Source: Emcibacteraceae bacterium (lineage in GTDB: Bacteria > Pseudomonadota > Alphaproteobacteria > Sphingomonadales > Emcibacteraceae). From it: DNA of 36,061 nt. Location of the stretch: assembly GCA_028281625.1 (NCBI GenBank), contig JANQJN010000156.1, positions 1-36,061 on the forward strand. The letters are read 5' to 3'. The first letter of the stretch is position 1; each line of letters starts with the position of its first letter. The notes beneath the pieces were generated by a model. The model did not search any database. It worked only from the letters and a program-made list of their open reading frames with translations, and was not told where the DNA came from. Position numbers and translations under genes: made by a program. Below, one piece after another: positions 20,698 to 26,526 of the stretch.

Positions 20698-21126
20698 ATG
20701 ACAAACTCTCTCCACGGCAGCTGCCATTGCGGCAATATTGAACTGGATCTGAAGACCGATAAGAATGTGTCTGAATTTTCACCGCGAACATGCGCCTGTT
20801 CATTTTGCAAGCGACATGGTGGTCTTTACATTTCGGACCCCGAAGGTTCGGTTGAAATCAGGCTTAAAAATAATAACGACGTAAACTTCTATCAGTTCGG
20901 CCACAAAACAGCGGATTTTCTGATTTGCAAGAAATGCGGCGTGTTTGTTTGCGCCACTTGTGATATCGACAATATGAAATATGCGGTGATTAATATCAAG
21001 ACCATGATTGATTACGACTTTCCGCCTTTAGGGGCGTCAAATGATTATGACGCTGAAAATACTGGTTCAAGACTAGAACGACGCGCGAAGAACTGGACCC
21101 CGCGCGTCGTCATAAATGAAATCTAA
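20698..21126 (+). CDS. GFA/CENP-V-type zinc protein
   Basis: This 142-aa protein is of the glutathione-dependent formaldehyde-activating (GFA) superfamily. Zinc ligands are seen in GSCHCGN (Cys9, Cys11), CACSFCKRHGG (Cys32, Cys34, Cys37) and ICKKCGVFVCATC. The family binds zinc and sometimes glutathione; true formaldehyde activation is unproven for most members. No signal peptide. It lies 80 bp after the tRNA-Arg. Parts of its sequence recur as a broken copy at 24131-24266. Its last codons hold a long inverted repeat (21078-21110). Confidence 0.88.
   Translation: MTNSLHGSCHCGNIELDLKTDKNVSEFSPRTCACSFCKRHGGLYISDPEGSVEIRLKNNNDVNFYQFGHKTADFLICKKCGVFVCATCDIDNMKYAVINIKTMIDYDFPPLGASNDYDAENTGSRLERRAKNWTPRVVINEI
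21078..21110. repeat. Ten-bp perfect inverted repeat in the GFA 3' end
   Basis: ACGACGCGCG (21078-21087) and CGCGCGTCGT (21101-21110) pair perfectly around 13 nt. The stem is kept, one pair shorter, in the broken copy (24218-24226 with 24242-24250). It lies where GFA and NHL genes converge, so it may act as a shared terminator; there is no T-run. Confidence 0.5.
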
Positions 21127-21127
21127 T

Positions 21128-21151
21128 TTATAGTTCCCAAGGAGCAGGTAT
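21128..21151 (-). pseudogene. 3' remnant of an NHL beta-propeller gene
   Basis: Reading on the minus strand, the last codons before TAA give IPAPWEL. The intact NHL gene at 24268-25320 ends IPAPWEQ. The remnant stands one base beyond the GFA stop, exactly as the intact NHL gene stands one base beyond the broken GFA copy. Upstream of these codons the similarity ends and unrelated sequence begins. It is too short to be functional and marks the left edge of the inserted segment. Confidence 0.7.
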
Positions 21152-21170
21152 CCGCCGTGTTAAATGCTGT

Positions 21171-21231
21171 GATGGAGGAAACTAAGTTCGCCGCATTGGG
21201 GGAACAACGGACTACAACCGCTTCCTCCATC
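21171..21231. repeat. Long-loop inverted repeat after the 29-aa membrane peptide gene
   Basis: GATGGAGGAA (21171-21180) and TTCCTCCATC (21222-21231) are perfect arms around 41 nt. The loop contains a smaller GTTC...GAAC dyad. It lies about 20 bp past the last stop of the minus-strand quorum-sensing genes. No T-run follows. It could be a processing or termination structure or a mobile-element relic. Confidence 0.45.
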
Positions 21232-21251: not shown

Positions 21252-21341
21252 TTATTTCTTACGTAACATCCAGAGAGAAATCATGATAAACATCAAAATT
21301 ATGCCCCACATTACAAAGTCCACTAACGAGTAGCTTGTCAT
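21252..21341 (-). CDS. 29-aa single-helix membrane peptide (new small ORF)
   Basis: ATG 21341 overlaps the stop of the PhyH-like gene in an ATGA junction. The peptide begins MTSYSLVDFVMWGIILMFIM and ends ISLWMLRKK. Residues 6-26 are continuously hydrophobic, and the C-terminus is Arg-Lys-Lys, so a one-helix inner-membrane peptide with a cytoplasmic C-terminus is predicted. AAGG about 11 nt upstream is a weak ribosome site; coupling through the overlap is likely. I do not recognise a family. An inverted repeat follows its stop. Confidence 0.5.
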   Translation of the reverse strand: MTSYSLVDFVMWGIILMFIMISLWMLRKK

Positions 21342-22183
21342 TCTGCAGCTGACCTTTTCAAGGCTTCCAACTGCGCCAGAATTTCATCTGGCAAGCAGTC
21401 AACGGCTGGCAATATGTCAGGACGATTTCCACTTAGCAAAACTGATGGACAATGGTTTTCATACCCCCCCAAGTTAGGTTTATGAATACGATATCCTATC
21501 AAATCTTGGATTTCTTTCGAAAACGTTGACGCTACTTCTTCAGGATAGGCAAGAAATTGATTCTCATATTGCTTGAGCCATCCTAGTGAATAACTCATAA
21601 TTATTCCGGTCCTCCCACTTTTGGAAATATTTGCACCCCCTGCATGCGTAAGAGAACCAAGAAACAATAATGCAGATCCTCGAGGCATTTCCGCAACAAT
21701 AGCATCTGTTTCATCCATATCTCGGGTGAGGGCGTTGTAATGACTACGCGGCCAAATTCGCGTCGCACCATTCTCTTCAGTAAAATCGTCAATAGCCCAC
21801 ATTACGTTAACTAAATACTCGCAATCCTTATGGCAGGACCACATTTCGTCATCCCTATGCGGCGGTTGCATGGCAGATCCTGGATGTATTCTGACGGCTT
21901 GGCTAAGATTCAATTGCCACCAATCGCAGTTGGGACCTAAGATTGCGTCTATGAGCGAAGTTATCTCAGGCTTTAGAACTAAATCTTGTGTAGAAGGTGC
22001 CTTACTTAGTAGCGAGCCAAACCGAGTGGTTTTCCAACCATAAAAGTCGCCCTGGCATTTGGGTGTTTCTTTGAACCAACAGTCTAATTCGCTTGAAATT
22101 TGATCCGTCAGTCTTTTGCCCAAAACATTTTCTATGATTACATATCCCTTAGCCCTCAACTCATCAAGCGCGTTACTAGTCAT
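21338..22183 (-). CDS. PhyH-type Fe(II)/2-oxoglutarate dioxygenase
   Basis: This 281-aa protein is of the phytanoyl-CoA dioxygenase superfamily; members hydroxylate acyl-CoAs, fatty acyl groups or other small molecules using Fe(II) and 2-oxoglutarate. The facial triad is visible: His109-x-Asp111 (QPPHRDDEMW) and His180 (GSLTHAGGAN). Arg191 (SKSGRTG) would bind 2-oxoglutarate. No signal peptide. ATG 22183 is set by GGAGG nine nt upstream and lies inside the end of the 72-aa gene (8-bp overlap). It is third in the luxI-type operon, so its substrate may be the acyl-homoserine lactone, its precursor or another cell-signal molecule; that is inference. Confidence 0.88.
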   Translation of the reverse strand: MTSNALDELRAKGYVIIENVLGKRLTDQISSELDCWFKETPKCQGDFYGWKTTRFGSLLSKAPSTQDLVLKPEITSLIDAILGPNCDWWQLNLSQAVRIHPGSAMQPPHRDDEMWSCHKDCEYLVNVMWAIDDFTEENGATRIWPRSHYNALTRDMDETDAIVAEMPRGSALLFLGSLTHAGGANISKSGRTGIIMSYSLGWLKQYENQFLAYPEEVASTFSKEIQDLIGYRIHKPNLGGYENHCPSVLLSGNRPDILPAVDCLPDEILAQLEALKRSAAE

Positions 22184-22394
22184 TGCTTGCCTCCAAAGTT
22201 GGTAAATCTTCAAATTCAATATTTCCCGCCGCGTAGCACTCAATACACATCATGAGACATTTTTGCTGCTCATAATTCAAATCAGTCATGGCATATTCAA
22301 TGCGTACCATCATTGTTTTAAAGTCAATTGCTGTAATCGCCTTATCACATTCATTTACAATTTCTTCTGAGGTTGACGCACGAGTTTTTGACAT
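22176..22394 (-). CDS. 72-aa protein of unknown function in the LuxI operon
   Basis: ATG 22394 has an excellent AAGGAG seven nt upstream, overlapping the LuxI-type stop. The protein is predicted soluble and helical, with four Cys (16, 46, 50, 53); the last three form C-x3-C-x2-C within KCLMMCIECYAAG. Its end overlaps the start of the PhyH-like gene by 8 bp, and the GGAGG for that gene lies inside it. I do not recognise a family. The tight packing argues for a real, coupled gene whose product may bind metal or partner the dioxygenase or synthase. Confidence 0.75.
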   Translation of the reverse strand: MSKTRASTSEEIVNECDKAITAIDFKTMMVRIEYAMTDLNYEQQKCLMMCIECYAAGNIEFEDLPTLEASND

Positions 22395-22405
22395 GCTAAC
22401 TCTCC

Positions 22406-23032
22406 TTAAGCAACCAGTAGATTTGATGGTAAAATTTTCAGTGTGGGAAATCGCAATGAGGCATTATTCCTAACCGCATGCAACCCCGCTCGCGTTACCT
22501 TGACCTCGAAAGCGCATATTGATTGCCCATTATCCTTTTGAGGCAACCCAAGCGGCCTTATCTCCCAGCCGCATCCTATACAATGTGGGATTAAAGCAGT
22601 TCCTATCACAAATGTAAGCTTTTCCCATCCGTAAAGAAGGGCGCATTCCATTACTCCACACATGATTTCCGTAAGAGCTCTTATGCGGTCGGCTCGCTTT
22701 GTGTAGTCTGGATTATAACAATATCTGGAGATTTCCCACACTTCATTACCTCTGGGTACGCCATCAACACAGAGCTCGGAAAAAAGCTCTGACATTAGAT
22801 GTGGATTTATAGTTGGATTTAACCTTAGTGAACTCCTGATATCGCCCTTATTATCGTCGACAACGATCAAATAAATCGTGTCGTTTGTATCAAATGCGTC
22901 TCGTTCTTCGCCATTTGGGGCAACCAAATTCCAATCCAGCCGATCAATAAATACACTTTTTCTGTCCTGGAACATTTTGCTAAGCAATTCGCCATACAAA
23001 TGTTTATTGTCATTGGAAATTAAATGTATCAT
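22406..23032 (-). CDS. LuxI-family acyl-homoserine-lactone synthase
   Basis: The enzyme makes an N-acyl-homoserine lactone from S-adenosylmethionine and an acyl-ACP or acyl-CoA. From ATG 23032 (AGGA six nt upstream) it has 208 aa, and the invariant LuxI residues fall at the family positions: Arg24, Phe28, Trp34, Glu43, Asp45, Asp48, Arg70, Glu100 and Arg103. This supports the chosen start over an in-frame ATG 26 codons upstream. Acyl chain length cannot be read. It is 122 bp downstream of the LuxR gene and 11 bp ahead of the 72-aa gene. No convincing lux box was found in the gap. Confidence 0.95.
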   Translation of the reverse strand: MIHLISNDNKHLYGELLSKMFQDRKSVFIDRLDWNLVAPNGEERDAFDTNDTIYLIVVDDNKGDIRSSLRLNPTINPHLMSELFSELCVDGVPRGNEVWEISRYCYNPDYTKRADRIRALTEIMCGVMECALLYGWEKLTFVIGTALIPHCIGCGWEIRPLGLPQKDNGQSICAFEVKVTRAGLHAVRNNASLRFPTLKILPSNLLVA

Positions 23033-23107
23033 GCCGATCCTATGAGTAGTTTCTACTAGCATTCGGAGAAGCGTAAGATAATTTGTGAATGTGTAAAATC
23101 CCCCGTT

Positions 23108-23134
23108 CAAGTGAAGGCTTTCGCCCTATACTTG
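23108..23134 (-). other. Hairpin with GAAA tetraloop between luxR-type and luxI-type genes
   Basis: On the minus strand CAAGT...ACTTG encloses AGGGC-GAAA-GCCTT, a stem of about ten pairs (one wobble) with a GNRA loop and a small internal bulge. It starts about 20 bp beyond the LuxR stop. GGGGGATTTT follows, so partial termination or a structured 5' leader for the synthase gene are both possible. Confidence 0.4.
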
Positions 23135-23154
23135 CAGTGGATCTATCTTGCTAT

Positions 23155-23958
23155 TCAGGATTGTATTATTATCACATTTTCATTTGAAAGAGCTTGGTCG
23201 TTTGCTGAGTTGCTCACTTGCAAATCTTGAAACCCAACCTCACCTTTGAACAAGGCTTTAGCAACGGCCTGCGATCTAGTATGCACGTTTAATTTCAGCA
23301 TGAGATTTTTAACATGTGTACTTACAGTATTTTCACTGGTCCCAAGGATCTGGCTGGTTTCCCAGTTGGTTTTCCCGTTAGCAATCTCCTGAAGTACGGC
23401 CCTTTCCTTTTCGGTCAGTGTTTTTAGAAATAGTTCGCTGCGCTTTACTTTCAGCGAAAGTGCAGACTCGTACAAATACATCGACATAAGTTCCAAGCTA
23501 AGTATCGCGTCTTCATTCAGTTCCCCTTTTTCAAATACTACGGAAACAGACGCTGGATAACCGATAGAAGAATGTATAGGAAAAGTTATACCTTCAGAGA
23601 TGCCTACCTCACTTGCTTCGTTAAGTATATTTCCTTGCTCAAACGTAAGCAGCGCCCGCCAACTTTCGTCGGACCATTTAAATGAAGTGAGCAATTTTTC
23701 TGCACTCTTCAATACCGGATCAATTTTATAATAATGTTGTTCGCTATGCCACTCTGCCCAGGACATTGGATAGTTTGTTAAGAGTATGGCATGAGGGGGT
23801 GGATTTAATGGATCAACGCTTGAAGCGCAGACAAAATGCTTGCATCCCATAGGCTTTATTTTTTTCCAAAAAAGCTCTGCAAGAGCATGCAATGAAGCAG
23901 CCCCCCTTGTTTCTTCCACAAACGACTTTGCACTACGCCAATATTCGATTTCATCCAT
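23155..23958 (-). CDS. LuxR-family quorum-sensing regulator
   Basis: This 267-aa regulator has an N-terminal autoinducer-binding domain (about 20-165) and a GerE helix-turn-helix (about 178-235, LTEKERAVLQEIANGKTNWE then TSENTVSTHVKNLMLKLNV). The ligand pocket signature is present: Trp67/Trp70, Tyr76/77, Asp80-Pro81 and Trp95. A polar 30-residue tail follows the HTH, which is longer than usual. It precedes the LuxI-type gene on the same strand and is its likely partner. The ribosome site is weak. A TATAAT at 24066-24071 (minus strand) is about 110 bp upstream and could be its -10, but no matching -35 was found. Confidence 0.94.
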   Translation of the reverse strand: MDEIEYWRSAKSFVEETRGAASLHALAELFWKKIKPMGCKHFVCASSVDPLNPPPHAILLTNYPMSWAEWHSEQHYYKIDPVLKSAEKLLTSFKWSDESWRALLTFEQGNILNEASEVGISEGITFPIHSSIGYPASVSVVFEKGELNEDAILSLELMSMYLYESALSLKVKRSELFLKTLTEKERAVLQEIANGKTNWETSQILGTSENTVSTHVKNLMLKLNVHTRSQAVAKALFKGEVGFQDLQVSNSANDQALSNENVIIIQS

Positions 23959-24130: not shown

Positions 24131-24266
24131 ACATGGAAGCCTTTACATTTCCGACCCCGGAGGTTCGGTTGAAATCAGACTTAAAAATAAAGCTAAAAAT
24201 ACGGGCTCAAGACTATAACGACGCGCAAAGAACTGGTCTCCGCGCGTCGTCATAAATGAAATCTAA
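24131..24266 (+). pseudogene. Broken second copy of the GFA gene
   Basis: The copy lacks the 5' third of the gene and roughly 180 bp of its middle. What remains aligns closely with 20814-20873 (HGSLYISDPGGSVEIRLKN against HGGLYISDPEGSVEIRLKN) and with about 21053-21126 (KNTGSRL, stop, RRAKNWSPRVVINEI). A GAA-to-TAA change adds an internal stop. Roughly one base in ten differs by eye, so this is not a recent identical duplication. It is followed one base later by the NHL gene stop, as the intact copy is followed by the NHL remnant. Confidence 0.85.
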
Positions 24267-24267
24267 C

Positions 24268-25320
24268 CTATTGCTCCCACGGGGCTGGTATCGTTCCTCT
24301 CGGTACATATTTACGAAGATTTCTTTCTTCCACTTCGGCGCCGTAAACATTGCCCTCGTCATCAGCTGTTACCCCTTCGGCGCGGCTGAACGCGATCCCT
24401 TTGTCGGGGTCTGGAATAAAGGCTGTTACCCATCCTGTGATGGCGCTACCGATACGAATACCACGGTCAAAGCCCGGGTTACGGGTTCCACCAGAGTTAC
24501 TTTCACTATCAGCAACATAAAGAATATCATTGGCATCAATATAAACACCGCTTGGACGGCCAAACTGACGCCAGGTCATTAGAAACTCACCATCCTGGCT
24601 GAAAATCTGTACCCGGTCGTTATAACGGTCGGCCACAAACAGACGACCCTGACTATCCATAGCGAGGCCATGTGGTTCATTCATTTCACCAAATTCAGCA
24701 CCCAAACCGCCGAATTCCATAATGTACTCACCCTCGGAATTAAACTTCACAACACGGTTATTGGGGCCTGGTCCACCTCTTCTTTGATGACCATCGGCGA
24801 CAAAAATATCACCATTTGGGGCCACCAGTACATCACATGGCATATCAAAATGATCTTTTCCTGAACCTGGCTTACCGGGCTGGCCTAGGGACATTAGAAG
24901 CTCGCCGTCCGGGCTAAATTTATGAACCTGGTGCCCGACACCCGCTTCTTCATCACCACGACCATCCGCGATCCACACGTTGCCGTCATGATCCACATGA
25001 ATACCATGCGGCCATACGATCAGACCACGGCCAAACATTTTAAGGATATTACCGTCCTTATCCAGTTGCATGATCATGTCCCGGTCCGGTGTATCCAGAC
25101 AGCTTCCATTGGCACCGCATCTCTCCGCAGCCCAGATTGTGCCATCACCACCATAATAAACGGTGCTGGTTGATCCCCACTGATTTCCATTGGGAAGTGG
25201 GGCCCAAACCCCTTCTATTTCCTCATACGGATTGTCTTGCGCATTGGCGGCACCTGTAAGGGTCAGTGCTGCAACACCGGCAAGCAATGTTGCTTTTGTA
25301 ATTTTTTTAATAATTTTCAT
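24268..25320 (-). CDS. Exported NHL-repeat beta-propeller protein (copy 1)
   Basis: This 350-aa protein has a signal peptide (1-27, cleavage after ANAQ or NAQ) and six-bladed NHL repeats such as WPHGIHVDHDGNVWIADGRG, PCDVLVAPNGDIFVADGHQ, PHGLAMDSQGRLFVADRYND and PSGVYIDANDILYVADSES. Such proteins are often labelled peptidyl-alpha-hydroxyglycine amidating-lyase-like, but an enzymatic role is not established from sequence. It is probably periplasmic. GGGAGATAA precedes the ATG. It is a tandem paralogue of the gene at 25436-26470, from which a terminator separates it. Confidence 0.87.
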   Translation of the reverse strand: MKIIKKITKATLLAGVAALTLTGAANAQDNPYEEIEGVWAPLPNGNQWGSTSTVYYGGDGTIWAAERCGANGSCLDTPDRDMIMQLDKDGNILKMFGRGLIVWPHGIHVDHDGNVWIADGRGDEEAGVGHQVHKFSPDGELLMSLGQPGKPGSGKDHFDMPCDVLVAPNGDIFVADGHQRRGGPGPNNRVVKFNSEGEYIMEFGGLGAEFGEMNEPHGLAMDSQGRLFVADRYNDRVQIFSQDGEFLMTWRQFGRPSGVYIDANDILYVADSESNSGGTRNPGFDRGIRIGSAITGWVTAFIPDPDKGIAFSRAEGVTADDEGNVYGAEVEERNLRKYVPRGTIPAPWEQ

Positions 25321-25435: not shown

Positions 25436-26470
25436 CTAGCGTCTTGGACGCGAGCCACGTGGTATATATTTTTTAAGAGCCCCTACTTCAACTTCTGCGC
25501 CATAAATATTACCTTCATCGTCTGCGGTTACACCTTCTGCCACGTTGAAACGCGTGCTCTTATCCGGATCACGAATGAAAGCATGTACCCATCCGGTCTT
25601 GGCGCTACCGATACGAATCCCACGGTCAAAACCCGGGTTACGGGTGCCGCCGGAATTACTTTCACTATCGGCTACATACAGGATATCATTATCATCAATG
25701 TAAACGCCACTGGGACGCCCAAACTGACGCCATGACATTAGGAATTCTCCGTCCTGAGTGAAGATTTGCACCCGGTCATTGTAACGGTCGGCGACAAACA
25801 GGCGACCCTGACTGTCCATAGCCAGGCCGTGTGGCTCATAAAGCTCACCGAATTCAGCGCCAGCGCCGCCAAACTCCATAATATATTCGCCGTCACTGTT
25901 ATATTTTACGATGCGATTGTTTGGTCCAGCACGACCACTACCAGAATGGCCATCGGCAACAAAAATATCCCCATTTGGCGCAACAAGCACATCACATGGC
26001 TGGTTAAAGGTATAATTGTCCTTACCCGCCACGCCGGCCTGACCCAAAGACATCAGAAGTTCCCCGTCCGGGCTAAATTTATGAACCTGGTGACCAACAC
26101 CTCGTTCTTCGTCACCGCGACCATCGGCAATCCACACATTGCCGTCATGATCCACATGAATGCCGTGCGGCCAGACAAACATGCCTTTTCCAAACATTTT
26201 TAGGATATTACCGTCTTTATCCAACTGCATAACCGGGTCAATTTCAGGAGTATCCTGGCAGTTGCCGTTTCCACCACAGCGCTCTGCGGCCCAGATGGTA
26301 CCATCACCACCATAATACACGGTACTGGTGGATCCCCAAACGCGACCATCAGGAAGTGGTGCCCAAACACCGGGTATTTCTTCATACGGATTTTCCTGTG
26401 CTTGCGCTCCACAGATCAGTGCTGTCGTCGCGGCCCCTGCAAGCAAGGTCAGCTTTATTAGTTTATTCAT
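25436..26470 (-). CDS. Exported NHL-repeat beta-propeller protein (copy 2)
   Basis: This 344-aa paralogue of the neighbouring gene is nearly collinear with it through all blades (for example FGRPSGVYIDDNDILYVADS), with divergence in the signal peptide, the residue 70-90 loop and the C-terminus (YIPRGSRPRR). ATG 26470 follows GGGAGAAAAT, which is why it is preferred over an ATG ten codons upstream. The signal peptide ends at CGAQAQ, so the product is periplasmic or secreted. Its promoter overlaps a perfect palindrome (26491-26507), suggesting control by a repressor or activator. Function is unknown. Confidence 0.87.
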   Translation of the reverse strand: MNKLIKLTLLAGAATTALICGAQAQENPYEEIPGVWAPLPDGRVWGSTSTVYYGGDGTIWAAERCGGNGNCQDTPEIDPVMQLDKDGNILKMFGKGMFVWPHGIHVDHDGNVWIADGRGDEERGVGHQVHKFSPDGELLMSLGQAGVAGKDNYTFNQPCDVLVAPNGDIFVADGHSGSGRAGPNNRIVKYNSDGEYIMEFGGAGAEFGELYEPHGLAMDSQGRLFVADRYNDRVQIFTQDGEFLMSWRQFGRPSGVYIDDNDILYVADSESNSGGTRNPGFDRGIRIGSAKTGWVHAFIRDPDKSTRFNVAEGVTADDEGNIYGAEVEVGALKKYIPRGSRPRR

Positions 26471-26490
26471 TATTTTCTCCCAATTTAAAT

Positions 26491-26526
26491 GCCTATCCAC
26501 GATAGGCGGCCCTGCCTAAATGTCAA
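26491..26526 (-). promoter_or_regulatory. Promoter with overlapping palindromic operator for NHL copy 2
   Basis: On the minus strand TTGACA (26526-26521), a 16-bp spacer and TATCGT (26504-26499). The perfect palindrome GCCTATC-GTG-GATAGGC (26507-26491) covers the -10, a classic repressor position. It could instead form a hairpin at the transcript start. Confidence 0.55.

Follow-up and report, generated by a model that had tools for sequence, protein, structure and literature searches.

The window analysed here is a stretch of 36,061 nucleotides from an Emcibacteraceae bacterium (GenBank assembly GCA_028281625.1, contig JANQJN010000156.1, positions 1 to 36,061 of the forward strand). The system in question is a cassette of five open reading frames (ORFs), all on the minus strand of the window, that encode a LuxR-type regulator, a LuxI-type synthase of acyl-homoserine lactones (AHLs), a 72-residue protein, a dioxygenase of the PhyH superfamily and a hydrophobic peptide of 29 residues (Table 1).

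Organization of the locus

The luxI gene was separated from the 72-residue ORF by 11 bp, the 72-residue ORF overlapped phyH by 8 bp (22176-22183) and phyH overlapped the 29-residue ORF by 4 bp in an ATGA motif (21338-21341). The sequence AAGGAG was located 8 nt 5' of the ATG of the 72-residue ORF. An initial annotation of this region had listed the same five ORFs with their strand, gap and overlaps, and these were confirmed, as was its description of luxI, the 72-residue gene and phyH as a single packed unit; the three genes are probably co-transcribed. Scans for promoters and terminators gave no more matches than chance, and neither the 72-residue nor the 29-residue protein matched a Pfam or NCBIfam family.

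Table 1. Features of the cassette and of the sequence on either side of it
Feature	Position	Strand	Basis
luxR-type AHL receptor/regulator, 267 aa	23155..23958	-	Autoind_bind PF03472 and GerE PF00196
luxI-type AHL synthase, 208 aa	22406..23032	-	PF00765
72-aa protein of the class A small family that follows luxI	22176..22394	-	leave-one-out hidden Markov model
PhyH-superfamily Fe(II)/2-oxoglutarate dioxygenase, 281 aa, ATG 22183	21338..22183	-	PF05721
29-aa hydrophobic ORF, status uncertain	21252..21341	-	ATGA overlap with phyH, hydrophobic stretch
Direct repeat D2, left-hand copy, made up of the intact GFA gene's end and ~26 bp matching the 3' end of an NHL gene	21047..21152	+	85% identical to 24187-24292
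Right-hand remnant of the GFA gene	24131..24292	+	matches 20814-20873 (90%) and 21047-21152 (85%)
Perfect 10-bp inverted repeat, 41-nt spacer	21171..21231		just past the 3' end of the 29-aa ORF, within the segment between the duplicates

The LuxI protein scored 85.3 bits against the Pfam domain Autoind_synth, PF00765 (cut-off 24), while the adjoining LuxR carried both Autoind_bind (82 bits, cut-off 23) and GerE (68.1 bits, cut-off 23.5). Arg24, Phe28 and Trp34 of LuxI were present at exactly the positions described as absolutely conserved in these synthases (PMC3704786; the published work cited here by PubMed Central (PMC) number was available as excerpts). By synthase domain and residues, and by the two domains of its neighbour, the pair is a LuxR-LuxI AHL system. 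The initial annotation had credited LuxI with all of the invariant residues, which held by position for these three; D48, D51, SLRL and WEISRY were compared with a general consensus by eye only. The luxI ORF is open from a TTG at 23110, but translation probably starts at ATG 23032, giving 208 residues to the stop at 22406; the luxI of a relative in the same genus (G009) starts at the equivalent position. The luxI of the window was the sole PF00765 match in its own genome, which is 96% complete in 205 contigs.

Linkage of PhyH to LuxI

In the PhyH superfamily, the residues of an HxD...H triad are iron ligands and an arginine is the ligand of 2-oxoglutarate (2OG). The PhyH of the window scored 102.6 bits against PF05721 in Pfam (cut-off 22), and the corresponding residues, H109, D111, H180 and R191, were invariant in all 23 luxI-linked sequences aligned, so that domain score, triad and 2OG-binding Arg all place it in the superfamily. 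The closest solved sequence relatives were natural-product tailoring dioxygenases, AndA (3.2e-35), TlxJ, PrhA and SptF, which act on fungal terpenoids and the like, whereas human PHYH matched at 2.9e-5 only. Because the sequence is much nearer to the tailoring enzymes than to human PHYH, the PhyH label holds at the superfamily level only.

Matches to this PhyH were found in 45 of 99 genomes of the order, and 24 luxI-phyH pairs, the window's included, were opened among the order relatives. A profile scan of named genomes gave at least 587 confirmed PhyH relatives, of which the best 80 were kept; these included records labelled Sphingomonadaceae, Hyphomonadaceae, Phenylobacterium, Kordiimonas, Marinicaulis, Steroidobacter and gammaproteobacterial metagenome-assembled genomes. 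A luxI was present in the fetched stretch of 80/80 and a luxR in 74/80, and luxI lay on the same strand directly upstream of phyH in 79, the remaining locus (L150) being divergent. These 80 represent only the nearest relatives; remoter PhyH proteins are also encoded at places without luxI, including two in the window's own genome, G000 (37-40% identity).

Sequence distances were compared at 86 distinct loci, drawn from 96 usable of 104. The correlation was r = 0.887 for LuxI-PhyH, 0.856 for LuxI-LuxR and 0.853 for PhyH-LuxR, none of these values being reached in 2000 permutations, and the partial correlations were 0.58 for LuxI-PhyH given LuxR, 0.39 for PhyH-LuxR given LuxI and 0.41 for LuxI-LuxR. 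Common descent contributes to the correlations, which therefore establish co-inheritance and not mechanism. A PhyH of this kind is a dedicated partner of LuxI.

With phyH following luxI in the same orientation, the arrangement is that of the sphingomonad luxR-luxI-phyH loci, and the link that the initial annotation had mentioned for sphingomonads is indeed published (PMC3704786, PMC4288048, PMC5012321). It had also proposed that PhyH hydroxylates the signal or its acyl precursor. Since PhyH is tied so tightly to LuxI, action on one or the other is its likeliest role, but plain 3-hydroxylation is a poor guess, since Agrobacterium carrying cloned luxI genes of Novosphingobium made 3-OH-AHLs. Three novI genes in an expression vector produced C8, 3-OH-C8, 3-OH-C10 and other AHLs in that host, and the excerpts describe the plasmids as carrying the novI gene with no mention of phyH (PMC5012321), so that PhyH is probably not required for 3-hydroxylation.

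The small protein encoded after luxI

The 72-residue protein belongs to a small family, class A, whose nine members are each encoded directly after a luxI and all come from the window's taxonomic family, represented by 32 genomes; its relatives are 54-70 residues long. A single-sequence search with the 72-residue protein reached only 2 of the 99 genomes, its own and G009, and the class was recovered by luxI-adjacent position together with a hidden Markov model. In a leave-one-out test, all nine members scored 21.3-38.2 bits, the window's protein at 21.3 bits, compared with a maximum of 11.6 bits in 500 shuffles, none of which reached any member, and 8.8 bits for the best of 56 other small ORFs that follow luxI. 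The test is partly circular because the initial choice of members was made by eye, on position and pattern; one of them, in G021, was noticed by eye, kept out of the seed set and then accepted by the first model. Judged from sequence, the conservation of the ORF exceeds chance. Comparison with hhalign gave a weak link between class A and a 116-residue Kordiimonas ORF (probability 12%); Kordiimonas marina has luxI, the 116-residue ORF and phyH in that order. Pfam and NCBIfam profiles gave the 72-residue protein no hit with an E value of 1 or lower, so that by profile it is not a TraM antiactivator.

The initial annotation had cast both small proteins as partners of PhyH and expected their genes beside luxI and phyH in related genomes, an expectation with a mixed outcome. 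At the seven luxI-phyH pairs of the taxonomic family, a class A gene was present between the two in six, the pair of G014 having none, and the 29-residue ORF was present in the window only. Class A genes also followed luxI without phyH at three further loci (the second luxI of G014, G015 and the second luxI of G025), and because three of the nine members sit at such loci the family goes with luxI and not with phyH. Moreover, 76 of 79 named luxI-phyH pairs from the best 80 relatives had no class A or class C small gene in between. A partnership of the 72-residue protein with PhyH is thus unlikely.

Whether the cassette is new has two answers. The luxR-luxI-phyH core, which the initial annotation took to be part of an undescribed cassette, is already known from sphingomonads, while the class A family is newly recognised in the slot that CinS and MmaP occupy elsewhere. 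The small protein looks new, as does the wider order of synthase, small gene and oxygenase: class A does not appear in the excerpts of the open-licence PMC literature on small quorum-sensing (QS) proteins, in which CinS and MmaP do.

The 29-residue ORF

A dedicated search with the 29-residue ORF found no relative in the 98 other genomes, the best E value being 0.22 and no match lying at a luxI-phyH locus; at E 1 or better it touched 8 of the 99 genomes including its own, which is chance level outside its own. Visual inspection of the 23 further luxI-phyH pairs showed no counterpart downstream of phyH, and an ORF of at least 25 residues arose in 32% of 5000 dinucleotide shuffles. We therefore lean towards regarding the frame as one that is open by chance and not as a gene, although it combines an ATGA overlap with a membrane-like segment: a 17-residue stretch with a mean hydropathy of at least 2.0 occurred in just 0.6% of shuffles, and that of the ORF is 2.4. 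Unlike but likewise short membrane ORFs also occur elsewhere, a 77-residue ORF in G025 being, by eye, the only other that overlaps phyH by ATGA, and a 42-residue one following the small gene at the second luxI of G014. The ORF is not counted as a demonstrated gene, and with no counterpart at the other pairs and no match below E 0.2 its proposed part in the cassette was not upheld.

Flanking duplications and position of the cassette

The cassette lies between two partial copies of the end of a GFA gene and of the adjoining NHL gene end, 85-90% identical, and apart from the five ORFs no gene was recognised in the segment between the copies. The corresponding region was compared in seven of eight relatives' stretches, L288 being left out. 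Two of these, G009 and G003, had the NHL gene next to the GFA gene, with matching flanking genes and no intervening cassette; in the other five the GFA gene was ~2.6 kb away (G008) or not near the NHL gene (four stretches). The cassette of G009 was on another contig and that of G010 several kb off, on the far side of an NHL-lytTR cluster. The flanking partial repeats, the empty site in G009 and G003 and the other positions of the cassette together point to mobility of the QS unit, and these sequence comparisons suggest that all of its genes moved together. The inverted repeat at 21171-21231 is possibly a terminator or an insertion scar.

The NHL-repeat protein is also present as a tandem duplicate (24268-25320 and 25436-26500) with 76% DNA identity over 300 nt. 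It has four strong matches in G000 and three in several relatives.

PraR-type regulators

Two small proteins encoded right after a synthase gene, CinS (67 residues, after cinI) and MmaP (59 residues, after mmaI), bind the helix-turn-helix regulator PraR (PMC4149787, PMC10790750). The window's genome contained an intact PraR-like gene of 143 residues (G000:C5), which adjoins an lnt-like gene, named by eye. In the sister cassette of G009 a second PraR-like gene preceded luxR by 58 bp, and in G094 one lay ~100 bp after a luxI. Overall, a PraR-like ORF was found within ~3 kb of 10 of 184 distinct luxI, compared with 0.48 expected from the class density of ~0.52 PraR-like genes per Mb.

Beyond the fetched loci, G224 had luxI and PraR-like matches within 1.3 kb of each other. 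The class genome G341 had eleven PraR-like matches in 1.6 Mb, which is unusually many.

Small genes and cytochrome P450 at other luxI loci

A second, widespread small family, class B, with no detectable relation to class A, follows luxI in other Alphaproteobacteria, often with a cytochrome P450. It comprised 24 ORF matches, including at least one overlapping artefact frame and three that are near-identical, and it was accompanied by a P450 at 6/6 loci from the order, 6/16 from the class and 1/1 selected by PhyH. One luxI-linked P450 was confirmed by Pfam (309.7 bits). Within 2.2 kb after luxI, a P450 was present at 8/63 luxI of the order and 9/48 of the class and a PhyH at 22/63 and 2/48, respectively, in a tally of the luxI loci fetched, a subset of all luxI matches, in which short stretches can conceal more distant genes. 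The small-ORF survey dropped 2 of the 184 distinct luxI for too little downstream sequence, and spurious frames persist among its "other" small ORFs, such as L013 and L026.

Several loci combined these elements. In the related genomes G050 and G067 (L058, L059), luxI was followed in one operon-like run by a class B gene, a P450, phyH and another small ORF; at L150, luxI, a class B small gene and a P450 adjoined the divergent LuxI-type phyH; and in G058 (L057) a 67-residue ORF, class B-like by eye, followed phyH instead of luxI. A luxI-P450 operon is not named in the excerpts of the open-licence PMC literature on luxI with P450 (including PMC5479921, PMC6749037, PMC3704786 and PMC12654047). A marine Rhodobacteraceae strain makes poly-hydroxylated AHLs, for which its authors proposed a P450 (PMC5479921).

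Interpretation

The explanation that we tentatively prefer, while giving it somewhat less than an even chance, is that the cassette is a mobile AHL QS operon in which a small regulatory gene supplements the known luxR-luxI-phyH set, and that PhyH tailors the signal and the 72-residue protein acts in the manner of CinS and MmaP. LuxI would make an AHL and LuxR would sense it. PhyH, dedicated to this LuxI lineage, would oxidize the finished AHL, or the acyl donor, elsewhere than at C3, resulting in a private or short-lived signal. The 72-residue protein, by analogy with CinS and MmaP, may be a quorum-induced adaptor that binds a PraR-type Cro/CI regulator and so would couple cell density to a second regulon.

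Several observations weigh against this explanation, 1) the distance correlations among LuxI, PhyH and LuxR are confounded by common descent, 2) G014, which has the nearest PhyH (70%), lacks a small gene between luxI and phyH, and among the 79 named pairs such a gene, of class A or C, was present in just three, the same loci as G010, G025 and G082, 3) classes A and B have no detectable relation (hhalign probability 0.4%) despite looking alike, 4) the NHL and GFA genes stood side by side without the cassette in just 2/7 stretches, so that the empty-site reading rests on two genomes, 5) no palindromic lux box of 18-22 bp reached the cut-off in the 190 nt upstream of luxI, a scan that degenerate boxes would escape, 6) a PraR-type gene in the window's genome is weak evidence alone because such genes were found in 257 of 337 class genomes, 7) G010 has the small gene, yet only a weak PraR-like match (1.1e-5, 33% over 67 residues), and 8) the ~20-fold enrichment of PraR-like ORFs near luxI has a control calculated from a table copied by hand, with the mean genome size taken to be 3.1 Mb, on an uneven luxI sample. 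Similarly, the PraR gene of the CinS and MmaP precedents adjoins the S-adenosylmethionine-synthetase gene (PMC4149787, PMC10790750), and the gene upstream of metK in G000, a candidate for the same arrangement, was hydrolase-like and not PraR-like.

The linkage and co-variation with LuxI would fit equally well if PhyH inactivated the AHL, so that the circuit carries its own quencher, one that limits the length of the signal pulse instead of making the active form. Oxidation of AHLs by a Bacillus P450 was reportedly described by Chowdhary in 2007, and P450 oxidation of such chains is attributed to that work in PMC5479921. The partial correlation of PhyH with LuxR given LuxI (0.39) fits an oxidized form seen by the receptor slightly better, though this is weak evidence, and we consider a quencher improbable. 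We think it equally improbable that PhyH is an output enzyme under quorum control whose substrate is some unrelated metabolite, its gene lying near luxI for the promoter only. The diverse natural products on which its closest solved relatives act would agree with such a role, as would the proposal of Hao et al. 2010, cited in PMC3704786 and PMC5012321, that phyH is under QS regulation. However, the genes after phyH vary among the loci inspected, so that no other pathway gene is evident, the luxI linkage was near-absolute in the best 80 of at least 587 relatives, which include records labelled Alpha- and Gammaproteobacteria, and an unrelated oxygenase, the P450, occupies the same slot elsewhere.

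For the small protein, the alternative target is LuxI or LuxR itself instead of PraR. Small QS antiactivators such as TraM, QteE and QslA exist, and a synthase modulator or antiactivator, functionally TraM-like, would account for the placement of all nine members directly after luxI, three of them at loci without phyH. Against this, the protein is not a TraM by profile and PraR-type genes cluster with luxI; we regard action on LuxI or LuxR as rather unlikely, though less so than either of the other roles for PhyH.

Under the preferred explanation of signal tailoring and a PraR-directed adaptor, a broader generalization suggests itself, which we put forward as speculative and doubtful: many alphaproteobacterial AHL operons may consist of a synthase, a fast-evolving PraR-directed adaptor and an interchangeable but dedicated oxygenase, PhyH or P450, that makes an undescribed class of AHL, the true ligand of LuxR. 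If so, the window's cassette would be a complete and mobile example of this three-part device. The near-absolute linkage of PhyH with LuxI, its co-variation with LuxI and LuxR and the P450 in the same slot elsewhere make the idea that the oxygenase sets the final signal directly testable. If that idea is true, the AHLs attributed to LuxI proteins on the basis of heterologous expression may differ from the final signals. The class A family offers a second handle, a likely QS link to conserved PraR regulators outside Rhizobium and Methylobacterium. What a specialist would find surprising is the general pattern of synthase, small gene and oxygenase, with either PhyH or P450 as the last of these.

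Comparison with known systems

The excerpts of the open-licence PMC literature on PhyH with AHL contain nothing that settles the role of PhyH beside luxI; the PhyH of PMC12654047 and PMC11582366 is an EctD or phytol gene, not tied to luxI in those excerpts. The HxD and H motifs of AndA, TlxJ, PrhA and SptF aligned with those of the window's PhyH.

The sphingomonad systems have the same three genes in the same order as the window. The luxR-luxI-phyH order was described for 4/5 pairs in Novosphingobium (PMC3704786), as "topology T" in Sphingomonadaceae (PMC4288048) and as novR-novI-phyH in N. subterraneum, where the reaction of bacterial PhyH was said in 2016 to be still undescribed (PMC5012321). 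The excerpts of these three papers mention no small gene between luxI and phyH, and none was seen in the opened pairs of family f6, which are Sphingomonadaceae by inference, whereas the window has the 72-residue gene. The window's genome belongs to a different family of the order from Sphingomonadaceae, and its 72- and 29-residue ORFs are additions to the sphingomonad arrangement.

In the CinI-CinS system of Rhizobium leguminosarum and the MmaI-MmaP system of Methylobacterium fujisawaense, the small gene directly follows the synthase gene and is co-transcribed with it, and no PhyH is mentioned with either in the excerpts (PMC4149787, PMC10790750). Searches of plasmids and of the class found CinI relatives, none with an identified CinS; the class search with a CinI relative matched 2/385 genomes, neither an evident CinI-CinS. 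In Rhizobium sp. T1473, the 87-residue ORF that follows a CinI relative had no match to either small-family model. The window's cassette resembles these systems in having a small gene of similar size 11 bp after luxI and a PraR-type gene in the genome. The luxI-class B-P450 loci differ from the window in both the small family and the type of oxygenase, and resemble it in the order of synthase, small gene and oxygenase.

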